In this document: piece after piece, positions 295 through 52,558 of the stretch
How the letters are laid out: each line of letters starts with the position of its first letter
Numbering within the stretch: the stretch's first letter is position 1
Source of the DNA: Brachyspira hampsonii 30446
GTDB taxonomy: Bacteria > Spirochaetota > Brachyspiria > Brachyspirales > Brachyspiraceae
Length of the DNA stretch: 64,000 nt
NCBI RefSeq assembly: GCF_000316195.1
Contig: NZ_JH994110.1
Location: 196,916-260,915 of the forward strand
Direction of reading: 5' to 3'
The notes under the pieces: model-generated
The model's input: only the letters and a program-made list of their open reading frames with translations
Told to the model about the DNA's origin: nothing
The model's database searches: none
Program-made: the position numbers and the translations under genes

Positions 295-1074
295 AACGCA
301 CGATAAGCAGATTCTTATTTATTATTTAAATTAGAATTTTTAATAATCATACATTTTAAATTTTATTCACCGTGCGTTGTATGCATTACAAATTAAAAAA
401 ATATTTGGGTGGGCAGCTAAAGATTCTAATTTTAGCAATAAAAAAATAAAAAATAGAAATTCCAGATTTAAGCCATAACCCTAGAGGGTGGGCAAGTGTA
501 ATTAAATTTTTAAACTTAATTTACATACCCCGCCCTTTTATTTTTTCTGTTCAATTTTAAAATTATAATTTAGATTCATTTTGATACGGTATTTAGAAAT
601 TAAAGCACCCGCCCAAGTGATTATTAAATTTAGAATTTATTTAACGCACGCTAAGCAGATCCTTATTTATTGTATAAATTTGAATTTTTAATAATCATAT
701 ATTTTAAATTTTATTTACCGTGCGTTGTGCAAATAAAAAATTTAAAAATAACTGGGGTTGGGGGTTATAATTTCTAATAAGACAATAAAGAAATAAAAAA
801 ACAAAAATGACAAAATAAATTAAAAATTCTAGAGGGTGTGCAAGTGTAATTAAATTTTCAAACTTAATTTACATACCCCGCTCTTTTATTTTTTCTGTTC
901 AATTTTAAAATTATAATTTAGATTCATTTTGATGCGGTATTTAGAAATTAAAGCACCCGCCCAAGTGATTATTAAATTTGGAATTTATTTAACGCACGGT
1001 AAGCAGATTATTATTTATTGTATAAATTAGAATTTTTAATAATCATACATTTTAAATTTTATTTACCGTGCGTT
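295..1074 (+). repeat. Intergenic A/B inverted-repeat array, A-B-A-B-A
   Basis: Five alternating modules are visible: A 295-378, B 402-619, A 643-726, B 751-966, A 991-1074. Each A has arms AACGCACG and CCGTGCGTT around an AT-rich core. Each B has outer arms of the type TTGGGTGGG/CCCGCCCAA and inner arms AGGGTGGG/CCCCGCCC. The A modules start exactly 348 bp apart, and the right halves of the two B modules are almost identical, so this is a tandem duplication of one A-B unit. The left arm of the second B is degenerate. No gene is visible inside. The array lies beyond the chemoreceptor stop codon. Confidence 0.85.
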
Positions 1075-1099
1075 GTGTTTGTAATGAATTTAAAAATAA

Positions 1100-1139
1100 T
1101 ATAAAAATAAAAACATCAAGTATCTATTATACCTGATGC
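1100..1139 (-). terminator. Rho-independent terminator of the chemoreceptor gene
   Basis: Read on the minus strand, GCATCAGGTAT pairs across a short loop with ATACTTGATG and is followed by a T-rich run. It starts about 25 nt after the chemoreceptor stop codon. Confidence 0.75.
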
Positions 1140-1165
1140 TTTAAATTCAATTTGATAAAATTATT

Positions 1166-3286
1166 TTAGAATGAAGCAAAACCATCATCTGTCATTTCAT
1201 TAGAAGTTGAAGAATATGTAGCTCCAAATTCATCATTTCTAACAGTAGTACTATCTTGTTTTTGAGATTCCATAGCTCTCTCTCTTTCTATAGAAGGCGG
1301 TACTTTCAATTCTTTTTTAGAAATATCTTTTTTTATAGTTTCTTTTTTACTGAAGTCTTGTTTTCTTGTATTTTCAGTTTTTATTTCTTGTTTAGGTTCT
1401 TTTTTTACTTTTACTGTATTTCCTTTCATTAAATCATCAGCACTTAATTTAAAGAAACTGACAGTATCTTTAAGAGCATGGGCCTGAGCAAGAAGCGATT
1501 CAGATGTATTTGCACTTTCCTGTACCAAAGAAGCATTATGCTGCGTTACGGTATCCATTTCAGCAACGGCTTTATTAACCTGATCTACACCTGTCTGCTG
1601 TTCCATAGCGGTAGCACTTATATCCTGCATTATTCTGGCAGTATCTTCTATTTTCTGCTGAATATCGATAAATATGTCTTGGGACTGACGAGCTGTTTCT
1701 GTAGCTTTACTAATTTTTTCATTTGTATTATCAACTAAAACAGTAATATCCTTAACAGATGACTGTGTAGTCTGTGCTAAGTTTCTAACTTCAGATGCCA
1801 CTACAGCAAAACCTTTACCCTGATCTCCTGCTCTTGCTGCCTCAACCGCTGCATTCAAAGCCAATATATTAGTTTGAAAAGCAATGTCTTCAATGATTTT
1901 AGTTATATTTTTAATTTTTGTACTAGCCTCATAAACTTCTTCTATATTTATTGTAGTTTCAGCAATAATTTTACCAGCATTTTCAACAGCCTCTTTTGAA
2001 GCAAGCATCATATTATTACCTTCAACAGCATGATCGGTAGAAGATTTTATTGTAGATGCCATCTCTTCCATAGAACTTGCAGTCTCCTCAAGACTTGCCG
2101 CCTGAGACTCAGTTCTTCTTGATAAATCAGTATTGCCCTGTGATAATTCCTGAGCGGCTTTTACTATATTATTAGATGCGGTATTAACTTCTGTTATAGT
2201 TTCAGCAAGTTTTCTTCTCATACTAACAAATGATTTTGATAAAACGCCTATTTCATCTTTTCTAGGTTTTATACGCTGCTTTATATTGCTCAAATCACCT
2301 TTTTCTATTTCCTGAGCCTCTTCAACTACTATTTCAAGCGGTTTAGTTATAGTTCCAATAAATAAACTTACAAATATTGCAAGTGCTATTATTGATATAA
2401 TACCTATTATTACACTTGCTATTATTAATTTTCTATTCTGTGAAAATATTTCATAATCCATCATAGCTAATGCTATTATCCAAGGTCTACTTTTCATCTT
2501 ATAATAAGCGGCTGTTCTTTGATCTCCATTTAAATCATAAGTAATTATTCCGCTTGATGCACCTGAGAAAGCCTGCTTATATATAGGATTAATTTGCATA
2601 TTGGCTATATTTTCATACTTTGAATCCATTATATTGTAAAGATTTTCACTAGTTATAAAAAGTCCGCCTGTCTCTCCTAAATCTATATTAGAAAAATGTG
2701 TTTGATGCAGAATATACCAATCAAGAAGAACATATATATATCCTATATTTTGATTATTATCGTCTTTCACAAGTTTTACAGCCGGCATAGCCCATTTACC
2801 TGTCACTTCTGACTGCATTAAAATATCTCCGTATACAATTTCATCATTATTAGCCGATACTTTAGACCAAGTTTTAGGAATATAATCTTTTAAATTCCTT
2901 CCTACAAGTACAGATGATACAGAATCAGAAATGATATTTCCATTAACATCAGCAAGTCCGATATTAATTATATACAAATTATTGCTTTTAAAATTCTTTA
3001 TTGTGCTTAACAATAATTCTGATGTAATAGTTTCATTTCCTTCTAAATATCTGACAACTACAGGAGTTACGGCATAAGTATTTATTAGGGAGCTTTCTAA
3101 GCCAAACCAAGTATCTAAAACAGAAGCATATCCTGCTATGGTACTGTTAAATCCTCCGAGCTTACTGTCGCTTATCCCTTTACTTCCTATTCTGATAGAA
3201 GATATGAGCATTGCTATTATTATCACCACAACCATAATACATATAACAAAAGGCATTCTAAATGCTAAGCTGTTTATTTTTTTCAT
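1166..3286 (-). CDS. Methyl-accepting chemotaxis protein (dCache-type sensor)
   Basis: This is a transmembrane chemoreceptor that passes periplasmic ligand signals to CheA/CheW. Residues 9-31 form the first membrane segment. A periplasmic region of about 250 residues has the length and pattern of a double Cache domain. A second membrane helix lies near 288-310, followed by a HAMP segment (about 312-365). The long cytoplasmic coiled coil contains the invariant hairpin tip ([20 protein letters not shown], roughly residues 475-495). After the signalling domain comes a Lys/Glu-rich linker of about 80 residues ending in DGFASF. A flexible tail closed by an aromatic-rich pentapeptide resembles the CheR/CheB tether of some receptors, although this is not the canonical NWETF. 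GGAG lies 11 nt before the ATG. Ligand unknown. Confidence 0.95.
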
Positions 3287-8649: not shown

Positions 8650-9216
8650 CTTGGGCGGGTGCTAACAAATGTTATTTAAACAATAAAACAGTATAAAGCT
8701 AAAATTCAAAGTAAAATAAGAAAGCATAAAGGGTGGGGATAGAGGAAAAGTTTTTAAATTTTTGGCTTTATTTTAATTTCAACCCTCTAGGTCTATTGTT
8801 TAATTATGAAATTTAAATTTCATTTGTCTTTTTACTTTAATTTAATTTATTAACACCCACCCAAAATGTAATTAGGTTTAAGACTTCTTTAACGCACGCA
8901 GAAAGAATTTCAAAACATAGTAAAAATTGAATTTTTAATCAGATTTATATTTTTTGTTTCATTTACCGTGCGGTGTATAGGCAATAAATTAAAAATTCAC
9001 TTGGGCGGGTGCTAACAGATGTTATTTAAACAATAAAATAAATATAAAGCTAAAATTCAAAGTAAAGTAATAAATTATAAAGGGCGGGGATAGAAAAAAG
9101 TTTTTAAATTTTTGGCTTTATTCTAATTCCCACCCTCTAGGTCTATTATTTAATTATGAAATTTAAATTTTATTTGTCTTTTTACTTTACTTTAATTTAT
9201 TAACGCCCACCCAAGT
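8650..9216 (+). repeat. Intergenic A/B inverted-repeat array, B-A-B
   Basis: B 8650-8865 (CTTGGGCGGGTGC ... CACCCACCCAA), A 8891-8974 (AACGCACGC ... ACCGTGCGGT) and B 9000-9216 (TTGGGCGGGTGC ... GCCCACCCAAG). The two B modules start 350 bp apart and are close copies throughout, including inner arms AGGGTGGGG/CCCTCTAGG. The array ends 23 bp beyond the stop codon of the minus-strand gene at 9240, and no other terminator is visible there. Confidence 0.85.
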
Positions 9217-9239: not shown

Positions 9240-12014
9240 TTACCAAGACATTTGAAAACCAAAGCCTATATATATATCATTCAAAGTAGGGTAGTTTTGA
9301 ATTGCACTCTTATCAAGACTTGTAGGAATCCTCAAAGCCAAAAGTAAATAAGGTTCTCCTGTAACAATATTCTGATATCCTGATATAGGTATGCTTGCAT
9401 CAAATCCAACTTTTACAGCGGCAGAATGCATGTATTCTGCCGCATAATAGGCATATCTGTATGAAAGAGATGCAAAGAAATTATCAAAGTATATATGACT
9501 TAAATTAAACTGTGAATCTAAATATCCTAACAGCTCAAAATCTCCTCCCAAAAGAAGACTGCTTTTATATTTTTTATTTTGTATATATGAATAAAACTCT
9601 TCAGGAGCTTTAACATATCTTCCTCCAAATACTGTAGAAGAGCCGTCAAATGCCGTATTTGTACCAAATGCATAAGAGCCGTAAAAACTTGCCCTTATAG
9701 GAACATATCTTGTTTGAAACTTTGTACTGAAGTCTATTGCAAATTTATTATATTTTATAGAGTATGTTGGATATATGGTAATATCAACTAAATCATCTCT
9801 GTACGGCTTGTCAGTTCTCACTCTAAATATCATTGATGCTTTTAAGGAAATATTAACAGTATATGAAGAATATTTCCAAGTAAATGCTGATGATGTATTG
9901 GTCTGAGGATTAACAAATTCAGAGAATAAAGCTCCCGAAATCGTAGGCTCTAATAAGAAATGCACTTTATCGCTTTCTGTATTAAGCAGAAACTGCATGG
10001 CAAGGTATGTATTTAATCTCCAATAATTGTATGTAGAATATACTACATCGCTTTTAAATCCGAAGTACAAAGGATAAAGCATACTAAAAGATGTAACAGT
10101 TAATTCTGTCTGAAGAAAATTAGAAGGTATATCATATCCAAGCCATATTAAAGCCAAATCATTTGCAGAAGGAGAAGAGACTACAGATAATATTCCAAGC
10201 CCATTTATAAGAAAAGGAAAACTATCACTCATCTGCGGCAGAGGCACCCACATAGACCAAGGCTTAAAATATTTAAAACTATTATAATTTCCAATCTCCA
10301 TTTGAGGAGTAAAATCATATTTATTAATTGTTTTGTCTGTATATGTAAAGTTTTTTGTTTGAGATGTATTGTCTGTATACTTCATAAGCCTGTCAAACTC
10401 TGAAAATCTCCCTTTATAATAAATGCTCTCTCCAGCATATACAGCAGAAAATACTCCTCCTGAATAATCTTTTGTATATAGCTTAATGCTGTTATTATTT
10501 AAATTAATTTCACCTAGCTTGTAAAACCTGTCATTATTATTGTACGAAAAAAGAAGTTTATTATTTGAGTATTTTAAATAGCGTACATAGTTAAGAGTAT
10601 TATCTTTTGTATAAATATATTTTAATGTTTTGTCATTATAATTAAATATTGCTATATGTTTTACTCCGTTTTCTGCAACTATCAATGCTATATTATTATC
10701 ATCAATAACCGCAGGAAAACCGTATCCGAAATTATCATTTGCCTGTAATAAAATTTCTTTTTCATTATTTTCATTTATGTATACTAAAATAGAGTTGTGT
10801 AAATCTTTTGATATTCCTATAATCCCATTTCTAAAATATCTTGCATACTGCATGTCAAACCATTTTCTTTTAGTTCTAGTTTTTTTATTTAAATCATATT
10901 CTTTTACAATGTATTTATAAAGTCCTCCGTTATACATATATGATACTATCAAGGCATTGCTTCCGTCTTTTGATATATCCAAACTTTCAGAACTTTTATC
11001 TATTAAAAATTCTAATTTTAAATCTTTTTTATTATTTTCATTATTTCTTTTTTCTTTATATGAGTATAATGCTCCAATGTCTCCGTCTATATAGTATAGA
11101 GTATCATTGTATGAGGCAATATCATTAATAAAAGTTTCTTTATCATTTACTCTTAACTCTTCGCTTGGATTAATATCTGTAAGCACCAAATAGTTTTGAA
11201 AGTCCGACCATATCTCAGTAAATTTTATTCCGTATACTTTTTTAAAAGCTCCGTAAACTCCAGAGTTATAAATAAGAAATGAAAAACTAAGACTAGTCTG
11301 CATTTTTTTCCAAAACTCATTATATTTCTCCATTCCAAATCTATCTTGTAAATATTTTGAGAAAAGTCCGCCGTATTCATAATATACATCTCCATAAGGG
11401 CTTTTAGTCCATAAATAGGATGTTTGAATTGGTGTTCTAAAATTGCCTTCAAATATATCCTGTCTTAATCTCTGTTTAATAAGCGGGTCATTAGCCCTGC
11501 CAAATCCTGTGAAACTTTCCATACTTACAGGAGCCCCCTCTATCATAAAAGGCATAGCATTAAGATGTACAAAAGAAGCCCAATTTCCCATTACCTTTGT
11601 TGCAAGTCCTGTATTTTCTGATGCCATAGTTAGTAAATGAGTAAGTTCATGTATAAATACTGTTTCAAAGTTGTTATTATAGCTTGTAAAGTTTTCATCT
11701 ATATTAGTATCATATAAAATAAGAGTTGAATATGGTATTATCATTGCTGAAGAATTAAAAATATTAAAGTCTGGAGTGATAGTTATAGGTATTTTTCCTC
11801 TTACTGTGCTATTTAAAATTTTAGAATATTTATAATATATATCATCAGCAACCTTTGCCAGATTCTCAGCTGTTCTTCTGGACTCTATAGGAAAGATTAT
11901 TTCAAATTTTTCTGTTTGTATAGTATATAATTTTCTAAACGGTTTGAAAACTTGAGGGTAAAGATTAGCCGCCATAATAAGAATTAAAGCAAAAAATAAA
12001 ACAGTTTTTTTCAT
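9240..12014 (-). CDS. Outer-membrane gluzincin-like metallopeptidase with beta-propeller and C-terminal barrel
   Basis: A signal peptide (residues 1-20, ending ANLYPQ) is followed by a peptidase-MA-like domain with the zinc motif HELTH in FETVFIHELTHLL (about residue 120). Residues of roughly 290-560 are repeats of blades reminiscent of TolB/WD40 propellers (for example SLDISKDGSNALIVSY). The last 330 residues alternate aromatic and polar residues like an outer-membrane beta-barrel and end in GFGFQMSW. A terminal W in place of F is acceptable for barrel assembly. It is probably surface-exposed or outer-membrane anchored. The family occurs in spirochaetes, but the substrate is unknown. The repeat array lies directly downstream. 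Confidence 0.75.
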   Translation of the reverse strand: MKKTVLFFALILIMAANLYPQVFKPFRKLYTIQTEKFEIIFPIESRRTAENLAKVADDIYYKYSKILNSTVRGKIPITITPDFNIFNSSAMIIPYSTLILYDTNIDENFTSYNNNFETVFIHELTHLLTMASENTGLATKVMGNWASFVHLNAMPFMIEGAPVSMESFTGFGRANDPLIKQRLRQDIFEGNFRTPIQTSYLWTKSPYGDVYYEYGGLFSKYLQDRFGMEKYNEFWKKMQTSLSFSFLIYNSGVYGAFKKVYGIKFTEIWSDFQNYLVLTDINPSEELRVNDKETFINDIASYNDTLYYIDGDIGALYSYKEKRNNENNKKDLKLEFLIDKSSESLDISKDGSNALIVSYMYNGGLYKYIVKEYDLNKKTRTKRKWFDMQYARYFRNGIIGISKDLHNSILVYINENNEKEILLQANDNFGYGFPAVIDDNNIALIVAENGVKHIAIFNYNDKTLKYIYTKDNTLNYVRYLKYSNNKLLFSYNNNDRFYKLGEINLNNNSIKLYTKDYSGGVFSAVYAGESIYYKGRFSEFDRLMKYTDNTSQTKNFTYTDKTINKYDFTPQMEIGNYNSFKYFKPWSMWVPLPQMSDSFPFLINGLGILSVVSSPSANDLALIWLGYDIPSNFLQTELTVTSFSMLYPLYFGFKSDVVYSTYNYWRLNTYLAMQFLLNTESDKVHFLLEPTISGALFSEFVNPQTNTSSAFTWKYSSYTVNISLKASMIFRVRTDKPYRDDLVDITIYPTYSIKYNKFAIDFSTKFQTRYVPIRASFYGSYAFGTNTAFDGSSTVFGGRYVKAPEEFYSYIQNKKYKSSLLLGGDFELLGYLDSQFNLSHIYFDNFFASLSYRYAYYAAEYMHSAAVKVGFDASIPISGYQNIVTGEPYLLLALRIPTSLDKSAIQNYPTLNDIYIGFGFQMSW

Positions 12015-31064: not shown

Positions 31065-31073
31065 ATAATAAAA

Positions 31074-40816: not shown

Positions 40817-40836
40817 GTCGAGGTTTAAGTGAGATA

Positions 40837-41490
40837 ATGAAAAAACTTTTATTTATTTTTAGTTTATTGATCTTTGTCATAGCATGTAAAAGTACGCCTA
40901 CAAACACAACACCGGAAGATGTAGTTATAGCAGACAATCCTCCTGCAGTAGAAGAAGAAAAGCCAAACCCTGAAGAAGTGGTAGCTGATACAAGTATGGA
41001 ATCAGATACTCAAACATTGACATCTAGTTCTGAAGAGCTTTATCTTCCTGTAGATACTTCAATAAGAGATACTGAGAGAGGAAGAATTTTAGAAACTACT
41101 CCAAAAATAGTATTCAAATTTGTAGAAACTAATATGCCTGCAACAGTAGAAATGTCATTCAATCAGGTAATAGAGTTTTTAGAGAAGAATCCTAATGTGA
41201 ATATAGTTTTAGAGGCACATACAAGCAATAGAGGAAAGGCATATCCTTATAATTACAATCTTTCTGTTGTAAGAGCTAAAAATGGTAAGGCATACTTATT
41301 GGCTAAAGGTATTCCTTCAGAAAGAGTTATAGAAAGTCCTCTTGGTGAGGCTTTGCCTGAATATCCTACTCAAAATGAGCTTAGAAGGTATGAGTTTGTT
41401 ATAATAGCCAATGATGAAGATTTAGTAAAATATAATACTTATATTTCTAATTTGGATGTGAGAAAAGAAAGTACATATCAGGGAAACTGA
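40837..41490 (+). CDS. OmpA-like lipoprotein, second of a tandem pair
   Basis: At 217 residues, it has the lipobox VIAC and an acidic Pro/Glu linker (about 20-70) longer than in its neighbour. The C-terminal domain matches the first paralogue closely in layout: NIVLEAHTSNRGKAYPYNYN, LSVVRAKNGKAYLL and the shared GEALPEYPT motif before ELRRYEFVII. The Asp of the peptidoglycan-binding loop is again absent. It arose from tandem duplication, and the pair probably tethers the outer membrane. A strong terminator follows. Confidence 0.82.
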   Translation: MKKLLFIFSLLIFVIACKSTPTNTTPEDVVIADNPPAVEEEKPNPEEVVADTSMESDTQTLTSSSEELYLPVDTSIRDTERGRILETTPKIVFKFVETNMPATVEMSFNQVIEFLEKNPNVNIVLEAHTSNRGKAYPYNYNLSVVRAKNGKAYLLAKGIPSERVIESPLGEALPEYPTQNELRRYEFVIIANDEDLVKYNTYISNLDVRKESTYQGN

Positions 41491-41515
41491 TTAAATTATA
41501 ATAAATAGTAAAATT

Positions 41516-41553
41516 AACCTCCTTTATTATTCACATTTTAAAGGAGGTTTTTA
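41516..41553 (+). terminator. Terminator of the OmpA-like pair
   Basis: A 11-bp stem AACCTCCTTTA/TAAAGGAGGTT is followed by TTTTATT, 26 nt past the stop codon. Confidence 0.85.
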
Positions 41554-41581
41554 TTATAAACTTTAAGGAAATTTTTATTTT

Positions 41582-42733: not shown

Positions 42734-42750
42734 AAAGTTATATATTTTTT

Positions 42751-42790
42751 AGGCTTGCTGTTATAATTAATATAATAGTAAGCCTTTTTT
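42751..42790 (+). terminator. Terminator of the HEAT-repeat gene
   Basis: AGGCTTGCTGTTATA pairs with TATAATAGTAAGCCT and is followed by TTTTT. Confidence 0.85.
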
Positions 42791-42845
42791 ATTTTTAAAT
42801 CTAATTATCCTACCCACCAGCCAAAAACTAAAATTAGTAATTTAT

Positions 42846-43046
42846 AAAAAACCCCAAGTATTATATTAATAACACTTGGGGAAAACTATGATTAGAATAT
42901 ATTAATTAAAAGTTGACATCATTTCCATAGTAAGCTGCTTCTAATACTTTTTTAATATTAACTTCATATGTTTATAATGCATTAAAATCTGTATAAAGTA
43001 CAAACTTTTGAATTATGCACTATAGTATAAGCAGCAAATTTATTGT
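42846..43046 (-). ncRNA. Candidate small RNA or very short gene
   Basis: On the minus strand, a strong promoter (43052-43079) is followed about 165-190 nt later by an intrinsic terminator (CCCCAAGTGTT ... AACTTGGGG type stem then TTTTTT, 42846-42881). No obvious coding sequence lies between. One 13-codon ATG frame and a 22-codon frame without an ATG (ending LEAAYYGNDVNF) are the best candidates. It could be a regulatory RNA, or the relic of a lost gene with its signals kept. Confidence 0.45.
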
Positions 43047-43051
43047 TCTAT

Positions 43052-43079
43052 ATTATAGTATTTATATAAAAATTGTCAA
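43052..43079 (-). promoter_or_regulatory. Sigma-70-type promoter of the candidate small RNA
   Basis: On the minus strand, TTGACA (43074-43079) and TATAAT (43052-43057) are separated by 16 bp. Both hexamers are perfect. Confidence 0.65.
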
Positions 43080-43157
43080 TTATATTATTATAAATTATTA
43101 CTTTTTTATAACTAATAAGTATAATAAAATGTTTATAGATTAAAAATTTAAAAAAGA

Positions 43158-43427
43158 CTTGGTCGGGTGCTAATAGGTGTAAATTAAATGACAAAATAAT
43201 ACAAAGCTAAAATTTAAAGTTAAGTAATAATTTCTAAAGGGCGGGATATGTAATTAGATTTTAAAGCCTATTTACATACTGCATTATTTACTTTTAGTTT
43301 TATAATAATTAAAAACTAATTATAAATTTTATAAAAATAACTCAACGCACGATGAACAAAGTTTTATTTATTGTTTCGATTATAATTCAAAATTAATATA
43401 TATTTTTTATATCATTCTGCGTGCGGT
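43158..43427 (+). repeat. Decayed B module plus A module
   Basis: The left half of B is recognisable (43158 onward, CTTGGTCGGGTGC, inner arm AAGGGCGGGATATG), but its right half has lost both C-rich arms. A follows at 43344-43427 (AACGCACGATGAACAAA ... TGCGTGCGGT). A ends 32 bp before the stop codon of the minus-strand TonB-like gene. Confidence 0.7.
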
Positions 43428-43459
43428 ATTTAAAATTAAAAAATAAAATATTTATATAA

Positions 43460-44386
43460 TTAATCCCTGCTGAAATTTTGATATATAAATTTGAAAGGAA
43501 TATAAATCTTTCCATTTTCAGCATAATCATTCCATAAACCTTGAGGCGGAGGCTTTAATTTTTTGGCATATTCAACAGCCTTTGAACATGAATTATCAAG
43601 ACTAGTCTGACCAAATATAGAAGTTTTCAAAAACTTTTCAAATTCTATATTTCCTTCTTCATCTATAGAAAGTAAAACTTCAACCTCATCAGTTCTTATA
43701 AGTCCCAAATAATGAGCCTGATTAGGTATAGTAAGATACCAAGAATCTCTTATAGATCCAACCAATGCATAGAAATACCAAAAATATTCCTGTGCCTTAG
43801 TACCAAGCTGCATACTTCCTGTTTCGCTTGAAAATACAACAGCTCTGTCAGCACCTTCTTCAAATGATGCAGGTATTTTAGTATCACCTTTAATTCCAGG
43901 ATTTTTAGGTTTATAAGTCTCTACATTATCTCTGGATATATCCTTTCCTAATTCTTTTTTTTCTCTATTTTGATTTTGATTATTATTAGGCTTAATATTT
44001 TCTGTAGGTCTTCTTTCTATTATAGGGCTATTTGCTCCGTCTCCCAAAAAAGAAAATACTGAAGTATCAGAAAATACTTTTGAAGGCTTAACATCTGTCT
44101 GACCTTTGGATCTTAATGTTTTGTCAGAGGCAAAAGGAGTATCTTCTTTACTCTCTTCCTCTTCTATTTCAGGGGTTTCCACCAAGAACATATAATCATC
44201 TTTTTTATATCTTTCCTCTGCTTCTTTTTTAGCCTTTTCATAAGCAAACACTTCCTGCATTATAGAAGTGTTTATAAAGCTGAATAAAAATATATGCAGT
44301 ATAAAAGATACTATAACAGAAAATAGTATATCTTTTCTTTTTATTAATTTTCTTTTTATATTAATAATTTTTTCTTTTATATTCAT
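43460..44386 (-). CDS. TonB-like energy transducer
   Basis: At 308 residues, a basic cytosolic start and one membrane helix (about 22-42, SVIVSFILHIFLFSFI) are followed by a charged linker and a C-terminal TonB-type domain. LTIPNQAHYLG, then VEVLLSIDEEGNIEFEKFLK, then DNSCSKAVEYAKKLKPPPQG and FKFIY have the order typical of TonB C-termini. TonB couples inner-membrane proton force to outer-membrane receptors. ExbB/ExbD are not in the window. The linker is acidic and Asn-rich rather than Pro-Lys-rich. The repeat array lies directly downstream. Confidence 0.82.
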   Translation of the reverse strand: MNIKEKIINIKRKLIKRKDILFSVIVSFILHIFLFSFINTSIMQEVFAYEKAKKEAEERYKKDDYMFLVETPEIEEEESKEDTPFASDKTLRSKGQTDVKPSKVFSDTSVFSFLGDGANSPIIERRPTENIKPNNNQNQNREKKELGKDISRDNVETYKPKNPGIKGDTKIPASFEEGADRAVVFSSETGSMQLGTKAQEYFWYFYALVGSIRDSWYLTIPNQAHYLGLIRTDEVEVLLSIDEEGNIEFEKFLKTSIFGQTSLDNSCSKAVEYAKKLKPPPQGLWNDYAENGKIYIPFKFIYQNFSRD

Positions 44387-44518
44387 ATCAACAATTTTAT
44401 ATTAATTAATATATTTTACAAGTTTTAAAACATATTAAAGCACTTAAAATAAAATATTGTTTTAAATTTATTTGATGCTAAATATCGTAATTAATAGTGA
44501 TTTACTTAAATACAAAAA

Positions 44519-44534
44519 TGTTTCACATGAAACA
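44519..44534. promoter_or_regulatory. parS-like centromere site 1
   Basis: TGTTTCACATGAAACA is the bacterial parS palindrome (consensus TGTTTCACGTGAAACA) with one central change. AAAA/TTTT flanks extend the palindrome. It is non-coding, upstream of the TonB-like gene. Confidence 0.75.
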
Positions 44535-44638
44535 TTTTATTTACTAAAAAATTAATTATTAATATGACGATATTAGCTTTCAGATATAATTTTATTAATT
44601 AAAGAAAATTATTAAGCCCGCCCGCCCACCCCAAACCA

Positions 44639-44720
44639 AACGCACGATTAAAAAATACATACATTAAAAATGAATATATAAAAACATGCCTAATATATTA
44701 TTTGTCTAATAACCGTGCGT
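44639..44720 (+). repeat. A module with remnant of a B arm, between the parS sites
   Basis: The arms are AACGCACG and CCGTGCGT around an AT-rich core of about 65 bp. A C-rich remnant (GCCCGCCCGCCCACCCC, 44616-44632) to its left is probably the last arm of a lost B. This is the only A module in the window that is not next to the stop codon of a minus-strand gene; it lies between divergent genes. Confidence 0.75.
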
Positions 44721-44725
44721 CAAAA

Positions 44726-44741
44726 TGTTTCATGTGAAACA
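44726..44741. promoter_or_regulatory. parS-like centromere site 2
   Basis: TGTTTCATGTGAAACA is the exact reverse complement of site 1, 207 bp away. It begins 5 bp after the A module and lies about 95 bp upstream of rsmI. Confidence 0.75.
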
Positions 44742-44835
44742 TTTTATTATAGTATTATTGTATTAATAAAAACTTTAATATATAATAGAGATAAATAAAT
44801 AATGGAGAATAACTATTAAAAATAATAATAAAAAA

Positions 44836-45660
44836 ATGATTAATAATGATGATATAAAAACTGATGAAGAGTTCGTAGAAGAAATAATAAATCATGGCAA
44901 TAATAAAAATATAGTGGAAAATGGTGTCATATATGTAGTTGCTACTCCTATAGGAAATATGGAAGATATAACTATAAGAGCTTTGAAAATACTTAGAAAT
45001 GTTGACTTTATATTGGCTGAAGATACAAGGGTAGCACTAAAACTCCTTAACTTCTATAATATAAAAAATAAATTATTTTCTTATCATAGCCATTCATCTG
45101 AATATAGAATCAATGAATATATAAATGAAATATTAAATGGAAACTCAGCTGCCATAGTTAGCGATGCAGGAACTCCATGTATAAGCGATCCGGGTGTAAG
45201 CATCATAAAATTAGCTATAGAAAAAAATATAAAAATAGTTCCTGTAGGAGGAATATCAGCATTTACTTCTTTATTATCAGTTTCAGGTATTTCAGGCAAT
45301 ACTTTATTCGTAGGATTTCTTTCTAATAAATCAGGAAAAAGAAGAAATCAATTAAAAGAATTATACAATAATCAAAAAACAATAATAGTAATATATGAAT
45401 CTGTTTATAGAGTTAAAGAATGCATAGAGGATATTGTTAACATATTCGGAGAAAAAACGGATATTGTTATCGGAAGAGAAATTACCAAACAATTTGAGCA
45501 AATAATCAGATCAGAAGCTAAAAATATCCTTGATTTTTTTATAGATGGTAGTATACTAACTAAAGGAGAATTTTGTATTATAATAGATAATAGAAAATCT
45601 AAAGTATGCAAGGCTAATGCCGAAAATAATCTATGTAAGGAGTCAGACTATGACAATTGA
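44836..45660 (+). CDS. rsmI: 16S rRNA (cytidine-1402-2'-O)-methyltransferase
   Basis: RsmI methylates the ribose of C1402 in 16S rRNA with SAM, in the cytosol. The 274-residue protein has the diagnostic YVVATPIGNMEDIT, LAEDTRVALKLL, SDAGTPCISDPG, PVGGISAFTSLLSVSG and FVGFL motifs. About 30 N-terminal residues before the core (KTDEEFVEEIINHGNN) are an unusual acidic extension; ATG 44836 lacks a clear binding site, so the true start could be further in. Its 3' end overlaps the FlgM-like gene by 11 nt, so the two are translationally linked. Confidence 0.93.
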   Translation: MINNDDIKTDEEFVEEIINHGNNKNIVENGVIYVVATPIGNMEDITIRALKILRNVDFILAEDTRVALKLLNFYNIKNKLFSYHSHSSEYRINEYINEILNGNSAAIVSDAGTPCISDPGVSIIKLAIEKNIKIVPVGGISAFTSLLSVSGISGNTLFVGFLSNKSGKRRNQLKELYNNQKTIIVIYESVYRVKECIEDIVNIFGEKTDIVIGREITKQFEQIIRSEAKNILDFFIDGSILTKGEFCIIIDNRKSKVCKANAENNLCKESDYDN

Positions 45661-45943
45661 TAAAATAGGCGGCACATCAAATATACAACAAAAATCTAAT
45701 ATTAAGTATAATGAAAAAGTTTCTAAAATGGGTTCAGATAGAATAGAAATTTCTAATGAATCAAGATTAGCTTTGCAAAATGAAAAATTAATTAACATCA
45801 TCAAAGAAGCTCCAGATGTAAGAGAAGAAAAAATCGCAGAAGCTAAAAAAAGATTGGAATTATATATGCAAGATGGTGCATTAAGAGAAGAGGTGTTAAA
45901 CTCTTTAGCTAATTCTATAATAGATTCTATGCCTATAGAATAA
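45650..45943 (+). CDS. flgM: FlgM-like anti-sigma-28 factor
   Basis: At 97 residues with the start chosen at ATG 45650, because AAGGAG lies 8 nt upstream and the longer frame has no binding site. N-terminal MTIDKIGG and GSDRIEISNES and the C-terminal helix pattern (APDVREEKIAEAKKRLELYM, then EEVLNSLANSIIDS) match FlgM proteins. FlgM binds sigma-28 (FliA) until the hook is complete and is then exported. It overlaps rsmI and is followed by a terminator. The name is based on pattern, so treat as probable. Confidence 0.75.
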   Translation: MTIDKIGGTSNIQQKSNIKYNEKVSKMGSDRIEISNESRLALQNEKLINIIKEAPDVREEKIAEAKKRLELYMQDGALREEVLNSLANSIIDSMPIE

Positions 45944-45984
45944 TAGAACTCTATTATCGTCTAGTTGTTTTTTTAATCTAATCT

Positions 45985-46018
45985 TAAAAATAGTAAGTAT
46001 TATCCTTACTATTTTTTT
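45985..46018. terminator. Terminator between flgM and the LuxR-type gene
   Basis: AAAATAGTAAG and CTTACTATTTT pair across a 6-nt loop and are flanked by T and A runs, so it could serve both convergent genes. Confidence 0.75.
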
Positions 46019-46063
46019 AAAATTAAGTTATCATAAACAAGTAATTATATACATAATTTAAGC

Positions 46064-47020
46064 CTATTTTTTAGAAAACTTATTTACTAATTCTACCCTA
46101 TTCTTTACTCCTGATTTCTCATATATATTAGCTACATGATTATTTACCGTATTAAGAGATATACTCAATATTAATGATACCTCTTTATTAGTTTTACCAT
46201 CGAGAAGATATGATAATATCTCTTTCTCTCTCTTAGTTAAATTTACATCTATTTTTTCTGTATTATTATAATTAACATCATCTTCTATAGCATTTTCACT
46301 ATTAATATTATTACTTGAGTTTGATATTTTATTATTGAGAATATTGATAAAATACCAAGATAAATAACCAAGCATAACTAAATTCCACCATATATAAAAT
46401 AATACCAATGTAATATCCATAGAACCTATATCAGCTGCTTCAATTCGGTAAATAATAAGCTGATATATAAGAACTGGATATATTATTATAGTTATAAGTC
46501 CAAGTATCTTTACTATTAATTTTACCGTCTTGTCTTTTATATTCTTATAGTTCACTGCACCTATTATAAATATTACGATTATAGAAATATAAAAAATAAT
46601 GCCGCTTATAATATAAATATCAAACTTTATCAATATTCCTAATATACTCAAAATAAAATGAATTATTGATATAGTTATATATATAATATTTTGTTTTAAA
46701 TTCCATTTTATATTTAAAAATCTATATAAAAATGCCGGTATAAAATAAAGCATAAGTGACATAGCTACAGAAAAACTAAAAAAGTATAATGTATTAAATA
46801 TATTATTAGACATGAAATAAGGAACTGTTAAAAAACTTAAAATTTTTACAGCCCTTATCATAAGAAGAAGAGAAAAAGTGAATAAAAATACTATATAATA
46901 TTTAAGCCATGCAACTCTTTCTATTATATAATAAATAATAGAAAAAAGTATTGAAGAAAAACCTATTATAAAAGAAAATAAATAGGCAATTAAGAGAATA
47001 TATCCTAATACATAATTCAT
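46064..47020 (-). CDS. Membrane-bound LuxR-type transcription regulator
   Basis: At 318 residues, about seven membrane helices fill residues 1-235, then a linker leads to a LuxR/GerE helix-turn-helix (residues 255-315): LTKREKEILSYLLDGKTNKE, then LSISLNTVNNHVANIYEKSG. Such one-component regulators pass a membrane or extracellular signal directly to DNA. The start overlaps the upstream gene by the 4-bp ATGA, so the pair is translationally coupled. The target genes are unknown. Confidence 0.85.
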   Translation of the reverse strand: MNYVLGYILLIAYLFSFIIGFSSILFSIIYYIIERVAWLKYYIVFLFTFSLLLMIRAVKILSFLTVPYFMSNNIFNTLYFFSFSVAMSLMLYFIPAFLYRFLNIKWNLKQNIIYITISIIHFILSILGILIKFDIYIISGIIFYISIIVIFIIGAVNYKNIKDKTVKLIVKILGLITIIIYPVLIYQLIIYRIEAADIGSMDITLVLFYIWWNLVMLGYLSWYFINILNNKISNSSNNINSENAIEDDVNYNNTEKIDVNLTKREKEILSYLLDGKTNKEVSLILSISLNTVNNHVANIYEKSGVKNRVELVNKFSKK

Positions 47021-47790
47021 AACTTATTCTTAGCCGGTAATATTATATTGATTCTCTGCTCATTTTTCACTGATTCAAACCATATATTACCATAATGTTC
47101 TTTTATTGTTCTATAGGCAGTATACAGATATAAATTATTAAAATTGAAATTATCATAAGATATTAAAGGCGTTTTAAAAAGCATTCTTTTTATATCATCA
47201 GGTATATCATCGCTTTTAAATGTTATAGATATATCTATGCATTCTTCATTCAAATCAAGCGTTTTCTCATCTTTTTTACTTATATTGTCAATTCCATTTA
47301 TTAATAAAAATTCTTTATCATCATCATAATCAATTAAATTATATGTTATATCCATCGATGTATTCACTTTTATTATATTGTAAATAAAGGTAAATACATT
47401 AAGAATACTTCTTTTTATCTTATCCCTATCCATTAAAACTATGCATTCTTTCAATATTTTATCATTTAATGTCATTTTAATTCTTTTAGATTTAAACAAA
47501 TCAAATATATCATCTAAAGCTTCATTTATAATAACAGATATATTTTCAAAATTCATATTGAGTTTAAAAGAATCAGAGTTTATATCATTAAAATCATTTA
47601 AAGCTTCCATAGTTCTATTTATTAGAAGAGATTGTCTTACTATTGTTGCTCTTGCTTCGCTGCAATAATTATTGGCACATCTTTCTATATCTATGTATTT
47701 GGATATTATATTATTATAATTTTGAACATCGTAAATTATATTTGAAATTAAATCTTTTAATTTATTGTTTATATAAAAATTTTGTTTCAT
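47017..47790 (-). CDS. Histidine-kinase-like protein lacking a typical ATP site
   Basis: At 257 residues, the first 85 are helical, like a dimerisation domain (QSLLINRTMEALNDFND). The rest resembles a HATPase_c fold: DRDKIKRSILNVFTFIY stands where the N-box would be, and TAYRTIKEHYGNIWFES leads to INIILPAK, as in kinase C-termini. The N-box Asn and the G1/G2 glycine motifs are not evident. It may be a non-catalytic relative that signals by binding to the LuxR-type protein encoded 4 bp downstream. This is an inference from pattern only. Confidence 0.55.
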   Translation of the reverse strand: MKQNFYINNKLKDLISNIIYDVQNYNNIISKYIDIERCANNYCSEARATIVRQSLLINRTMEALNDFNDINSDSFKLNMNFENISVIINEALDDIFDLFKSKRIKMTLNDKILKECIVLMDRDKIKRSILNVFTFIYNIIKVNTSMDITYNLIDYDDDKEFLLINGIDNISKKDEKTLDLNEECIDISITFKSDDIPDDIKRMLFKTPLISYDNFNFNNLYLYTAYRTIKEHYGNIWFESVKNEQRINIILPAKNKL

Positions 47791-47949
47791 AATACGCCTG
47801 AAATAAACATAATATTTTTACTTATTATAACATAAAATTATTAAAAATGCCAATTTTATAAAATAAATTCAAAATTTGAATTCATAATTTAAATTTATAT
47901 TATAAATTCTTTTATTAAATTTTATAGTAAAATTTATACAGTATTTTTA

Positions 47950-48320
47950 TTTTAAGTTATTAACATTATAAACAAGTTATTAACATTATTAAAATAATTG
48001 AATTCATTATATTTTTATTTTTTCAAATTCAAATTTTGAATATATGAAGATTTCTTTTATATAATAATATTATATATTTAAATTTTTAAATAAATTTTTT
48101 ATTATTATTAAGATGTTGATATGTTGATAATTTATTGCATATAAGAAGAAAATAGAAAAAATATATAAATATAATGTTGATAACTATGTTGATATTAACA
48201 AATATTAAAATATATAAAAACAATAAATTTTATAATGAAATTCAGAATTTTTATAAAATATAAATTTGTTTGCAATGTTAATATTTTTTTATTATTTATT
48301 AACATTTTATCAACAATATT
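47950..48320. other. Candidate chromosomal origin of replication (oriC)
   Basis: In an 850-bp non-coding gap, nine-mers matching DnaA boxes cluster: TTATTAACA at 47957, 47977 and 48296; TTATCAACA at 48307; its reverse complement TGTTGATAA at 48122 and 48175; TGTTGATAT at 48114 and 48187. Long stretches of pure A/T lie between, as expected of an unwinding element. The two parS-like sites lie 3.3 kb away. dnaA, dnaN and parAB are not in the window, so this remains a candidate. Confidence 0.5.
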
Positions 48321-48359
48321 GTTTTAATTGCCTATAGAATATGAATTAATTTATATAAT

Positions 48360-48570
48360 TTTATTTATTAGTTGTTGGTAATACTCAGTAGTTGTATTTG
48401 GTGCTGCAAACTTATTTTTTACTATGTATGCCTCGCTTGCTTAGAAAATCTATATCCTAGACAAGTTCAGATACGCTTAGAGAATGAATATTGGTATACT
48501 AAAATAATAATTTGTACAGCATATAAAATATTATATACAATCTTGTTAAGTAATTTTGAAAGAAGTACAT
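48360..48570 (-). repeat. MITE-like element, degenerate copy 3
   Basis: The segment TATACTAAAATAATAATTTG followed by TACAGCATATAAAATATTAT and the end CTTGTTAAGTAATTTTGAAA matches copy 1 (3450-3550) over about 120 bp. The GC-rich middle has diverged, and the left end is uncertain. It sits between the candidate oriC and the EamA gene. Confidence 0.5.
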
Positions 48571-48641
48571 TACAATTATTGATTTTTAGATCATTTTAAT
48601 ATAATATTTTCCGACAATCATGAACCAAAAAGCAAATAACT

Positions 48642-49517
48642 ATGATTAATGATTCAAATAATAATATAAAATTAGGTTCTTTATTTATAATATTTTCTGC
48701 TCTTTCGTTTAGTATAATGGAGATAGCAGTAAAAATTTCAGGCTCAAATATACCAGTAATGGAGCAGGTTTTTGCCCGTAACTTTATAACATTGTTTATA
48801 AGTGCCTTTGTTATGATTAGAGATAAAGAAAAACTATTTCCTAGTAAAAGCAATATTTTATCAATAGTATGCAGAAGTATTTCTGGATATTTAGGTATTA
48901 TATGCTATTTTTATGCTACTAATAATATGGTTCTTGCCGATGCATCCGTACTTCAGAAAACATCGCCTTTTTGGTCTAGTTTTTTTGCTTTTATTTTAAT
49001 TAAAGAAAAGGTTTTGAAAATACAGTGGCTTGGAATGATTATTGCTGCAATAGGATCTGTATTTATAATAAAGCCGTCTATGAATTCAAATGTATTTCCT
49101 GCTGTAGTGGCTTTGTCTGCTGCCATGTTTGCCGGTATTTCTTATGCTATAATAGGTTCTCTAAAAGGAAAAGAGAGCAGCTCTTTAATAATATTTTATT
49201 TTTCTTTGTTTTCATGTGTATTTTCATTATTCTTTGTGAAAAGTTTTGTTATTCCTAATTTGCTTGAAGTGTTATTACTTTTGCTTATAGGAATATTTGC
49301 GGGATTTGGACAGTTCTTTTTAACTGTAGCATATAAAAAAGCACCTGTTTCTGCTGTAAGTATATATAATTATACAGGAGTAATATTTTCATATATTTTC
49401 AGTGTATTTTTATTTAAAGAAAAAGTGGACATTTATTCTGTAATAGGAATGATTCTTACAATATTTGCTGCATTGATTGTTTATTTTTATAAAAATAGAG
49501 TCTATATTAAAAATTAA
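48642..49517 (+). CDS. EamA/DMT-family transporter
   Basis: At 291 residues with ten predicted membrane helices arranged as two EamA repeats: FIIFSALSFSIMEIAVKISG starts the first, and ALSAAMFAGISYAIIGSLKG starts the second. QKTSPFWSSFFAFILIKEKV is a typical repeat end. These drug/metabolite carriers move amino acids, nucleosides or nucleotide sugars; the substrate cannot be assigned. It lies alone beside the candidate origin, with the MITE-like copy upstream. Confidence 0.88.
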   Translation: MINDSNNNIKLGSLFIIFSALSFSIMEIAVKISGSNIPVMEQVFARNFITLFISAFVMIRDKEKLFPSKSNILSIVCRSISGYLGIICYFYATNNMVLADASVLQKTSPFWSSFFAFILIKEKVLKIQWLGMIIAAIGSVFIIKPSMNSNVFPAVVALSAAMFAGISYAIIGSLKGKESSSLIIFYFSLFSCVFSLFFVKSFVIPNLLEVLLLLLIGIFAGFGQFFLTVAYKKAPVSAVSIYNYTGVIFSYIFSVFLFKEKVDIYSVIGMILTIFAALIVYFYKNRVYIKN

Positions 49518-49585
49518 TTTATTGGTATATTTTTATTTCATATTGTTATATAATATAAAATAAAAATATACTATTGGAAAATAAA

Positions 49586-50467
49586 ATGAATAATAATATT
49601 TCTAAAAACACTATGAAGCTTTTATTAGAGATGCAGCAAAATGAGGTAACGGAGCATGCCGTTTATTTGAATCTTGTAAAATTTGTAAAAAAAGAAGATG
49701 ATAAAAGAGTATTAGAAAATATTGCAAAAGAAGAGTATGCTCACTCAAAAATACTAGAGAAATATACAAATAAAAAATTAAAGCCTCAAAAATTAAAGGT
49801 ATTAAAATATTTTATATTAAGTTTTCTCTTAGGATATACATTTGTAATAAAGATAATGGAAGGCGGTGAAAAGAACGCTGAGAATATTTATTCAAGAATA
49901 GTATCAGAAGTACCTGATGCTAAAAAAATAGCTTTTGATGAAGATGAGCATGAAAATAGACTTATATCTATACTAGATGAGGACAGGCTTAAATATGCAG
50001 GTTCTATGGTTTTAGGTTTAAGCGATGCTTTAGTAGAGATAAGCGGTACATTAGCAGGTTTAAGTTTCGCTTTGCAAAATAACAAATTAGTGGCATTATC
50101 TGGTATTATAACAGGTATTTCTGCCACATTATCAATGGCTTCTTCTGAGTATTTATCTGCTAAAGCCGAAGGCGATAAAAATGCTTTTAAATCATGTTCA
50201 TATACAGGAATAATGTATTTAATAACGGTAACACTCTTAATACTGCCTTATCTTATTTTTCCGAGTAATCATTATTTATATGCTTTGATTACTATGCTTT
50301 GTATAGTTGTATTTATAATATTTTTCTTTACATACTATATATCTGTTGCTAAAAGTCTTCCTTTTAAAAAAAGATTCATTGAGATGGCTGGGATTAGTTT
50401 AACAGTTGCTGCGATAAGTTTTTTAATAGGTCTTTTGGTAAAGCAGTTTTTAGGTATTGATATTTAA
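49586..50467 (+). CDS. Rubrerythrin-like plus VIT1/CCC1 membrane protein
   Basis: The N-terminal half (about 10-130) is a ferritin-like domain with paired metal motifs (NEVTEHAVYL; IAKEEYAHSKILE; FDEDEHENRLI). The C-terminal half is a VIT1/CCC1 domain with about five helices, including VLGLSDALVEISGTLAGLSF and SMASSEYLSAKAEG. This order is that of the membrane-bound ferritin MbfA, which exports iron under peroxide stress. It probably detoxifies iron or manganese. I start at ATG 49586 because GGA lies 8 nt before it; a TTG four codons upstream is the alternative. Confidence 0.85.
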   Translation: MNNNISKNTMKLLLEMQQNEVTEHAVYLNLVKFVKKEDDKRVLENIAKEEYAHSKILEKYTNKKLKPQKLKVLKYFILSFLLGYTFVIKIMEGGEKNAENIYSRIVSEVPDAKKIAFDEDEHENRLISILDEDRLKYAGSMVLGLSDALVEISGTLAGLSFALQNNKLVALSGIITGISATLSMASSEYLSAKAEGDKNAFKSCSYTGIMYLITVTLLILPYLIFPSNHYLYALITMLCIVVFIIFFFTYYISVAKSLPFKKRFIEMAGISLTVAAISFLIGLLVKQFLGIDI

Positions 50468-50474
50468 AAAATCA

Positions 50475-50894
50475 TCAGCTTACTATATTCTCAAGCTCTT
50501 CTATGATATTGGATATTATTTCATTATATTCTTTGAACCAGCCACTGTTAGTGAGGGTATCCCAAATGCTGAATTTTAAATCCTTAGTATTTCCTGTATT
50601 ATTATCTAAAAGTTTTATATTAGAAAAATTTACTATAAATTTGTCGTATTCTAAATGAAAGCTTATATCAAAACATAGAGAATTATTGTTTATAACATTA
50701 TTAGATACAAAAAATAAATATACTAGTCCATTATCATAACTGCTGAATTTATTATTTGCAGCTTCATTTTTTACCCATTTGAGAATTTCTTTTCTTAAAT
50801 TACTTCCTTTTAATTTTGTAGATACAAATATTTTCTGTTCGGCTGCAGCTATTGTATAAATACTAAATAGAAATATTAATACTATCTTTTTCAT
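50475..50894 (-). CDS. Small exported protein, unknown function
   Basis: At 139 residues, it has a signal peptide (residues 1-18, ending IAAAEQ). The mature domain is alpha/beta (KIFVSTKLKGSNLRKEILKW; CFDISFHLEYDKFIVNFSNI) and ends with a helical IISNIIEELENIVS. I do not recognise the family. It is 13 nt downstream of another exported protein on the same strand, so the two form an operon. It converges with the MbfA-like gene at only 7 bp. Confidence 0.65.
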   Translation of the reverse strand: MKKIVLIFLFSIYTIAAAEQKIFVSTKLKGSNLRKEILKWVKNEAANNKFSSYDNGLVYLFFVSNNVINNNSLCFDISFHLEYDKFIVNFSNIKLLDNNTGNTKDLKFSIWDTLTNSGWFKEYNEIISNIIEELENIVS

Positions 50895-50907
50895 TTAAAG
50901 TTTTATA

Positions 50908-51438
50908 TTATAATTCTCTTATTGTAGATAAAATATTATTAATCTGTTTATATTGTCTTTTATAATCATTTCTTATCAAAGCAACCATAACCTGATGATA
51001 ATAATTTTTTGTTTCTAGTGTATATAAAAGATAATGAACTAATGTATTTTCATAATATGAATCAAATTCTGTTATATACATTTCTTTATTATTAACTTCT
51101 ATTTTACTAGAAGATATAATATTTTCGCCATTCATTCCATTTAAAATATTTGTATTATATTCTTCCAAGCTTATATTATTTAATTCCTCTTTAGATTTAG
51201 AGAACATTATAAAACATACGCCTTTTTTATTATTTATAGCTTCTAAATTAGAGTTTTCATTAAGCTCATTTTTTTCTTTAGATAATTTCCATTCATTATC
51301 AAATATAAAAGCAAATTTTCCGTCATAACTTTTTATAAAAAACTCGCCATTGCTATTTCTTCTTTTTAATACTATTAAAGCTGCCGAAACTGTGATGATT
51401 GTACTGCTTAAAATGATTAGAGGAAGTTTTTTGCCCAT
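50908..51438 (-). CDS. Membrane-anchored extracytoplasmic protein, unknown function
   Basis: At 176 residues, it has one N-terminal membrane helix (about 4-24) and a soluble domain outside. The domain (KSYDGKFAFIFDNEWKLSKE, then EMYITEFDSYYENTLVHYLL, then KNYYHQVMVALIRNDYKRQY) has the look of PsbP/LpqN-like alpha-beta proteins, but this is a weak resemblance. The ATG at 51438 is preferred because AGGGG lies 8 nt before it; a GTG three codons upstream is possible. It forms an operon with the smaller exported protein that follows. Confidence 0.65.
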   Translation of the reverse strand: MGKKLPLIILSSTIITVSAALIVLKRRNSNGEFFIKSYDGKFAFIFDNEWKLSKEKNELNENSNLEAINNKKGVCFIMFSKSKEELNNISLEEYNTNILNGMNGENIISSSKIEVNNKEMYITEFDSYYENTLVHYLLYTLETKNYYHQVMVALIRNDYKRQYKQINNILSTIREL

Positions 51439-51549
51439 AGTAATCACCCCTATATTTTATTACTAATAATAGGCTATAACATTTTAGTTAAAAAATCAAG
51501 GAATTGTATAAAATTATTTCTTATTATAGCAAAAATATTTGTATTAATT

Positions 51550-52558
51550 AACGCACGGTAAGCAGATTATAATATATAATTTTTTCTTTAATTGTATATT
51601 GATTAACAACTATAGTACCATCAATCGTGCGGTGTATAAGCTATAAATTTAAATAAAACTTGGGTGGGTGCTAATAGGTGTAAGTTAAATAATAAAACAG
51701 TGTAAAACTAAAATTAAAAGTGAAGTAATGAATTCTAAAGGGCGGGAAGTGAGAAAATTTTTTTAATTTTTTGGCTTTATTCTCATTCCCACCCTCTAGG
51801 CTTATTGTTTTATTTTAAAATTAAGATTTTATTTGTTTTTATATTTTCTCTAATTTATTAACGCCCGCCCAAGTTTTGATTAGGTTTTAAATCTTTACAA
51901 CGCACGCAAAATAAATTTTAAAACATAGCAAAAATTGTATTGTTAATGAATTTATATTTTTTGTTTCATTTACCGTGCGGTTGATAGGCTATAAATTTAA
52001 ATTAGTCTGGGCGGGTGCTAATAAATGTAATTTAAATAATAAAGCAATATAAAGTAAAAATTCAAAGTAAAGTAATAAAGAATAAAGGGCGGGGAGCGAG
52101 AAAAAGTTTTTAAATTTTTTACTTTATTCTAGTTCCCACCCTCTAGGCTTATTGTTTTATTTTAAAATTAAGATTTTATTTGTTTTTATATTTTCTCTAA
52201 TTTATTAACGCCCGCCCAAGTTTTGATTAGGTTTTAAATCTTTACAACGCACGCAAAATAAATTTTAAAACATAGCAAAAATTGTATTGTTAATGAATTT
52301 ATATTTTTTGTTTCATTTACCGTGCGGTTGATAGGCTATAAATTTAAATTAGTTTGGGTGGGTGCTGTAATTACATAAAAAGTTTTAAAGAAAAACGGCA
52401 TAAAAATATATTGGAGTATTGAAAAGTATAGAGGGTGGGGTATTGATAATAAAGTTTTAAAACTTAATTATATTTGGCAAACCTTTATATTTAAAGTTCT
52501 ATTATTAACTTTTATTTTTTTATAACCTAATTAGAATTTATTAGCTGCTAACCCAAGT
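51550..52558 (+). repeat. Intergenic A/B array, A-B-A-B-A-B (longest)
   Basis: Six modules: A 51550-51633, B 51659-51875, A 51899-51982, B 52006-52222, A 52246-52329, B 52353-52558. The B starts are exactly 347 bp apart. About 130 bp from the right arm of one B through the next A is identical between units, showing recent duplication or gene conversion. The first A differs in core sequence, and the last B has lost its right-hand C-rich arm. The array ends 25 bp beyond the argS stop codon, with no other terminator there. Confidence 0.88.

Follow-up and report, generated by a model that had tools for sequence, protein, structure and literature searches.

The window analysed here, a stretch of 64,000 nucleotides of Brachyspira hampsonii 30446 with a GC content of 26% (contig NZ_JH994110.1, below C3; a window position equals the C3 position minus 196915), is part of a genome of 3.04 Mb in four contigs and carries an intergenic repeat family composed of two palindromic modules, A and B. 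Thirteen A modules and 13 B or half-B modules form nine clusters (Table 1); the A modules with their arms, the B and half-B modules and the period of approximately 348 bp given in a preliminary description of this DNA were all recovered. The sequence AACGCACG occurs 14 times in the window versus a mean of 0.06 in 100 shuffles. The A module (profile length 83 bp) contains CGCACG and CGTGCG at a distance of approximately 74 bp; the half-B module contains a pair of GGGYGGG motifs approximately 78 bp apart (starts separated by 76-80 bp in 93 of 96 cases in the stretches of the own genome) and inner arms with a gap of 32-36 or 40-42 bp, and the whole B profile measures 211 bp. Direct-repeat families of the window recur at the period of about 348 bp, this unit being reiterated in the longer arrays, with tandem units up to 92% alike over 300 bp.

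Profiles built from 12 A and six B modules of the window were iterated over 750 kb of fetched stretches; those of the own genome had been chosen around earlier matches and hold 124 of its 132 exact A modules. In these own stretches the search yielded 142 A sites and 172 B or half-B sites in 121 clusters, of which 22 consist of a single module and 21 of half-B, A and half-B (about 345 bp). The alternation of A and B seen in the preliminary description was kept strictly in 97 of the 99 multi-module clusters; the two exceptions contain adjoining B pieces (window 33950-34373 and C4:498057). By contrast, its statement that all A modules point the same way did not hold: three of the 12 scorable window A modules fit the opposite strand better in the iterated profile (23008-23090, 53.1 versus 27.2 bits; 28499-28581, 43.6 versus 27.8 bits; 34294-34373, 28.8 bits), the 13th (44639-44721) being too degenerate for a profile score. 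The inner and outer 3' arms of the B module at 33950-34267 have approximately 105 extra bases between them (region 34082-34257), among which is an inverted repeat around GCTATA. For all two-species comparisons a single relative was used (G004; one contig, 3.19 Mb).

Table 1. Repeat clusters of the window, with their modules, neighbouring genes and counterparts in G004.
Window position	Strand	Composition	Modules	Context and comparison
295-1074	+	array A-B-A-B-A, 348-bp period	A 295-378, 643-726, 991-1074; B 405-617, 752-965	three A modules versus two in the orthologous G004 array at 1723725 (one unit fewer)
8650-9215	+	B-A-B	B 8650-8864; A 8891-8974; B 9000-9215	25 bp before the stop of minus-strand gene 9240-12014; half-B only at the orthologous place in G004
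22878-23228	-	half-B, A (reversed), half-B	A 23008-23090	between convergent genes; kept in G004 at 1771442
28499-28823	-	A (reversed), B	A 28499-28581; B 28608-28823	between convergent genes; kept in G004 at 1765759
30847-31065	+	half-B, A	half-B 30847-30955; A 30981-31065	approximately 10 bp before the stop of gene 31074-32300
33950-34373	-	B, degenerate reversed A	B 33950-34267; A 34294-34373	
43158-43427	+	half-B, A, approximately 68 bp between	half-B 43158-43275; A 43344-43427	aligned gap of 1862 bp in G004 without element
44617-44721	.	degenerate copy, below profile threshold	C-rich run 44617-44632; A arms 44639-44721	
51550-52555	+	array A-B-A-B-A-B	A 51550-51633, 51899-51981, 52246-52328; B 51659-51873, 52008-52220, 52354-52555	just 3' of argS (52584-54257, minus strand)

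In the genome sample the family is restricted to Brachyspira. The exact A pattern was present in 24 of the 26 Brachyspira genomes (the own genome included) with 2 to 146 copies, the reversed pattern, used as control, giving none in any of them; G001 and G003 were the two genomes with zero copies. With one repeat unit as BLAST query against 247 genomes of the phylum, E values of 1e-12 or lower were confined to Brachyspira, where 23 of the 26 genomes reached them and G019 gave only a weak match. Outside the genus, 33 of 221 genomes matched at E values up to 0.001 (best 1.7e-7 over 39 bp; longest match approximately 93 bp), and these matches were judged to be chance similarities in AT-rich sequence. 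Phage and plasmid collections contained no match to the repeat, hence there is no sign of a phage or plasmid origin. Searches of open-access literature on the genus, genome papers included, turned up no mention of such a repeat (subscription papers lie outside this coverage), and the two-part repeat is apparently undescribed. A shorter unit than 348 bp is seen in G010 (C1:2494846-2495625), where four A modules follow each other at distances of approximately 234 bp.

The repeats prefer gene 3' ends, above all between convergent genes (gene neighbours being simple open reading frame calls), and in this respect the preliminary description of a two-module intergenic family tied to 3' ends is supported. 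Eight of the 121 clusters overlap a called open reading frame of 183-561 bp and two have no neighbour within their stretch; the remaining 111 comprise 48 clusters between convergent, 43 between same-direction (26 minus-minus, 17 plus-plus) and 20 between divergent genes, with a median distance of 42 bp to gene 3' ends and 122 bp to 5' ends. The convergent to divergent ratio was 48:20 in gaps with an element versus 31:68 in element-free gaps of more than 100 bp (p = 8e-7). The fixed polarity to the gene, as also proposed at first, is refuted by the count that the preliminary description had itself named as the test, and the association with minus-strand genes is a local feature: to the right of eight clusters of the window a minus-strand gene does end at a distance of 3-158 bp, whereas the 111 intergenic clusters are distributed over all gene arrangements as given above. 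Throughout the fetched stretches the orientation of A was independent of the strand of the nearest 3'-facing gene (13 clusters A+ and 15 A- at plus-strand genes versus 19 and 18, respectively, at minus-strand genes; Fisher p = 0.80; five clusters with A modules of mixed orientation and those without a clearly oriented A module or a facing 3' end are left out). The same applied to B as oriented by its inner-arm bases in own and G004 stretches (22/11 for plus-strand and 15/13 for minus-strand genes, p = 0.43, leaving out 11 with symmetric inner arms).

Judged against the one relative, the elements are mostly old and inherited. Both flanks of 75 of the 121 own clusters were found in G004 stretches, and an A or B piece was situated between them in 72 cases; in the reverse direction, 68 of 93 G004 clusters could be mapped, 67 of them with a piece in the own stretches. 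Within the contiguous region of G004 from 1.70 to 1.88 Mb, a piece is retained at every one of the 14 own clusters that could be mapped, two of which share one place. The number of units often differs between orthologous sites of the two species.

For the comparison of sequence change, 219 of 407 gaps of the own genome had both anchors in G004, and 37 of very different length were dropped (14 with and 23 without an element). Change per site amounted to 10.6% in the elements, 8.2% in their flanks and 7.0% in element-free gaps. At the GC positions of the arms, motifs defined in the own genome had changed by 2.9% (A) and 3.1% (B) versus 16.2% at GC positions of element-free gaps and 24.5% elsewhere in element gaps; for motifs defined in G004 the respective values were 0.5% (A) and 4.4% (B) versus 16.8% and 23.0%, and in the contiguous 1.70-1.88 Mb region 1.1-2.7% versus 15.3-32.3% in the other classes. 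The observed drop was close to fourfold or larger, whereas the choice of motifs as intact in one genome would by itself predict at most a twofold one; in element-free gaps the motifs occur by chance too rarely (2-5 copies) to provide a control. Since the elements drift faster than element-free gaps while the arms do not, the part that is kept is the motifs: of the intact B-arm motifs, 123 of 153 in one direction and 123 of 144 in the other remained so, and of the intact A arms 81 of 96 and 81 of 83. The spacing was held as well, with a mean change of 0.98 bp in half-B (n = 65) and 0.95 bp in A (n = 41) versus 5.55 bp in 403 background windows of 78 bp; this difference from the background resides in the size of the changes, those of one or two bases being common. 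That the elements are neutral relics kept alike by gene conversion among copies is very improbable: some dispersed copies do show mosaic similarity, but conversion would homogenise the sequence between the arms too, and this sequence drifts faster than other intergenic DNA while the arms do not.

The elements could alternatively act as RNA hairpins in 3' untranslated regions, stabilising mRNA or terminating transcription from both sides, an explanation to which the preference for 3' ends would be suited. It was weighed by means of the pairing in 47 modules of type A and 26 of type B. Among the Watson-Crick pairs of A, 16 had changed on both sides (8.1 expected if independent) and eight of them stay Watson-Crick, compared with 1-7 in shifted registers; in B, 26 pairs had changed on both sides (12.0 expected) and 13 stay Watson-Crick, compared with 3-7. 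Of the co-variation of the arms that had been anticipated, little or nothing was thus seen in A and a weak excess in B, which speaks for a hairpin there, but pair-breaking single changes (163 in A, 234 in B) far exceed these doubles. The middle base of GGGYGGG, the single arm position that varies freely, was swapped between C and T at 15 of 66 comparable sites between the own genome and G004, and its pairs with CCCRCCC across the hairpin were Watson-Crick in a minority of 34 of 160 cases (own and G004 B modules): T with G and C with A were common and C with G occurred in only 4 of 160, a strong departure from independence for which the only account we can offer is that B is a directional element. 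Stem mismatches on the sense strand lacked any G-U bias (216 G.T versus 236 A.C, p = 0.37), and orientation ignores the strand of the gene. One B+A unit does fold well below shuffled sequences on both strands (z = -6.6 and -6.8), yet this predicted fold follows from the palindrome and does not look RNA-selected, except perhaps weakly in B.

No match at the Rfam gathering score was obtained in the window, and a known RNA family was rejected on this ground; none of the five terminator-like sites in window 40001-60000, the part scanned (5.1 expected by chance), lay inside an element. Terminator-like hairpins with T runs are located outside the elements at 42751-42785, 42852-42881 and 57893-57918. 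Canonical quadruplexes, which the G-runs had been thought able to form, were absent from all 121 clusters and were likewise rejected. With the weak compensation, the mostly non-Watson-Crick pairs at the variable arm position and the missing G-U bias, an RNA hairpin was rejected as the main function, and we regard it as an unlikely explanation overall. Constraint on motifs and spacing together with at most weak pair compensation and no G-U bias favours protein sites in duplex DNA over RNA hairpins.

The closest resemblance is to the bacterial interspersed mosaic elements (BIMEs) known from E. coli and the repetitive extragenic palindromic (REP) sequences of which they consist. These are described as palindromic intergenic modules in arrays, mostly between convergent or same-direction genes and rarely between divergent ones, with a proposed function as protein sites and a role in topology (PMC2817692, PMC3733652); BIMEs bind gyrase and IHF (PMC2817692), and a REP is a palindrome of 20-40 bp (PMC3733652). 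The Brachyspira family shares with them more than 100 copies, the intergenic position, the palindromic modules arrayed with spacers, the variable unit number, the alternation of regularly spaced palindromes and the prevalence of convergent and same-direction over divergent neighbourhoods. It deviates from BIMEs in that two module types alternate instead of one REP type alternating in orientation, and from REP in module size (83 and 211 bp) and in having no conserved tag (11 of 138 full A modules and 1 of 66 full B modules have GTAG near an end, and no module has CGTC there); the constraint on arm motifs and spacing is a further difference from both. The IS200/IS605 Y1 transposase of the RAYT type (PF01797), which accompanies GTAG REPs, was found in neither of the two genomes searched (G000 and G004), with the control detected in 5 of 14 genomes, and a RAYT-driven REP was rejected. 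As REP size, tag and transposase are all lacking, the family was not filed as REP.

Our preferred reading, to which we give about even chances, is that these Brachyspira-specific intergenic elements are phased protein sites in duplex DNA that work like BIMEs at places where transcription ends. The 348-bp unit sets GC-rich sites at fixed distances within very AT-rich DNA; one DNA-binding protein or several, whether a nucleoid protein or a topoisomerase (gyrase, for example), might read them in the duplex, and the elements, lying beyond gene ends where converging polymerases encounter positive supercoils, could help to hold the topology of the chromosome. We infer the binding, the identity of the protein and the topological role. 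Repeat families are often filed as mobile junk or RNA hairpins, and kept motifs and spacing with free intervening sequence constitute a testable sign of protein docking in such a family. More than 100 of these multi-site elements occur per genome in a genus that includes pathogens, and the architecture of the chromosome in these spirochaetes would become open to direct study if the elements are read by a protein.

Several points weigh against an interpretation as protein sites. The constraint rests on a single species pair, and gene conversion between copies could be an alternative way to keep the arms alike. Most G004 stretches had been picked around exact A sites, which inflates both element and A-arm retention, a few of the G004 mappings are loose, and one place in G004 is shared by two own clusters. 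The share of unchanged lengths was close to the background (A 0.56, half-B 0.63, background of 78 bp 0.43), and the A-B and B-A spacers were unchanged in 0.52 and 0.58 versus 0.58-0.62 in a background of 40-50 bp. The weak excess of compensated pairs in B belongs here as well. Finally, recent copying, as expected of a selfish element, is indicated by two copies in G004, those at 2540901 and 803242: a stretch of 202 bp, reaching from the inner arm CCCGCCCT to shortly beyond A, is the same in both, and their flanks are largely unrelated.

Miniature inverted-repeat transposable elements (MITEs) are short, non-coding and intergenic and have inverted-repeat ends. The family is comparable to them as short non-coding intergenic elements with such ends and one recent copy seen, and a non-autonomous mobile element of MITE-like or REP-like kind would explain the arms as transposase signals, the 3' location as tolerance and the arrays as unequal recombination without any host function; the differing unit numbers at orthologous sites and the similarity of the tandem units would also be accounted for. 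We consider this possible, albeit clearly less probable than protein sites. Copies that occupy equivalent places in two species have constrained arms, as dead insertions would not, and many positions are common to both species. Identity to the most similar copy elsewhere tends to be low (medians of 83% and 81%, in alignments that may include flanks). Neither a target duplication nor a parent transposase was found, only Y1 having been sought; a clean empty site with target duplication was not obtained, the sole candidate examined in detail (own C3:172036) carrying other changes.

A further feature of the putative protein sites is their distribution along the chromosome. In G004, 111 of 118 exact A sites were placed; 81 of them fall within 1.2-2.0 Mb, and the first 0.6 Mb contains none (Rayleigh test, p = 2.6e-21 for all placed sites and 1.9e-11 for the 74 places left after thinning). 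The cumulative GC skew, calculated from 63 sampled stretches, has its minimum near 1.435 Mb, and 99 of the 111 sites are located within a quarter genome on either side of it (half expected), while the best dnaA match, at 2.957 Mb (C1:2957080), is far from this minimum. For B. intermedia, too, the genome paper derives the origin from the skew, at a distance from dnaA, and describes the leading strands as G-rich (PMC3163572); under this convention, if it holds for G004, the elements there are grouped around the skew origin. Of the 124 sites placed in the own genome, 113 fall into C3 0-0.6 Mb and C4 0-0.8 Mb. A higher density of convergent gaps (11.1 versus 7.8 per 100 kb) does not explain the concentration, since their occupancy differs as well (7 of 20 in a rich part versus 1 of 33 in poor samples, p = 0.003). 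No regional concentration was seen in G010 (p = 0.29; 42 of 52 exact A sites, 31 after thinning, with a rounded genome length) or in G009 (p = 0.28; 12 of 48 sites placed), and in the latter the skew of 20 samples contained too much noise for an origin to be located. The concentration in one chromosome half is therefore a property of two genomes and not of two others, and is not general.

MatP together with matS marks the terminus region of E. coli. A comparable concentration of many sites in one chromosomal region occurs here in two genomes, and it is conceivable, but in our estimation doubtful, that the elements are the DNA half of a chromosome-organising system in which a dedicated protein would read the phased CGCACG/GGGYGGG motifs in duplex DNA beyond gene ends and, in the lineage of the own genome, mark the skew-origin half of the chromosome. 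Unlike matS, the family consists of long multi-site arrays, is found on the skew-origin side in G004, is not regional in two other genomes and has no known protein.

The relatives of the window argS at an identity of at least 76% are Brachyspira loci and one labelled Spirochaetes. Just past argS an A-B-A array is found in L031, L033 and L034; across the argS loci of the relatives elements are present or absent at this position, and synteny is too broken to define a clean empty site. Downstream of argS (L031-L046) the synteny between species breaks, with elements near several of the breakpoints, and the repeats may act as seeds of rearrangement there. Segments of 91-98% identity and up to 1.2 kb in length lie beside clusters in L073, L078 and L098 (C3:279-281 kb, C3:391-393 kb and C4:99-101 kb) and look as if a gene had been duplicated with its repeats. 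Apart from the repeat family, the window contains a direct repeat (40661-40773 and 41323-41435) between the neighbouring plus-strand open reading frames 40205-40816 and 40837-41490, which are likely tandem paralogues.

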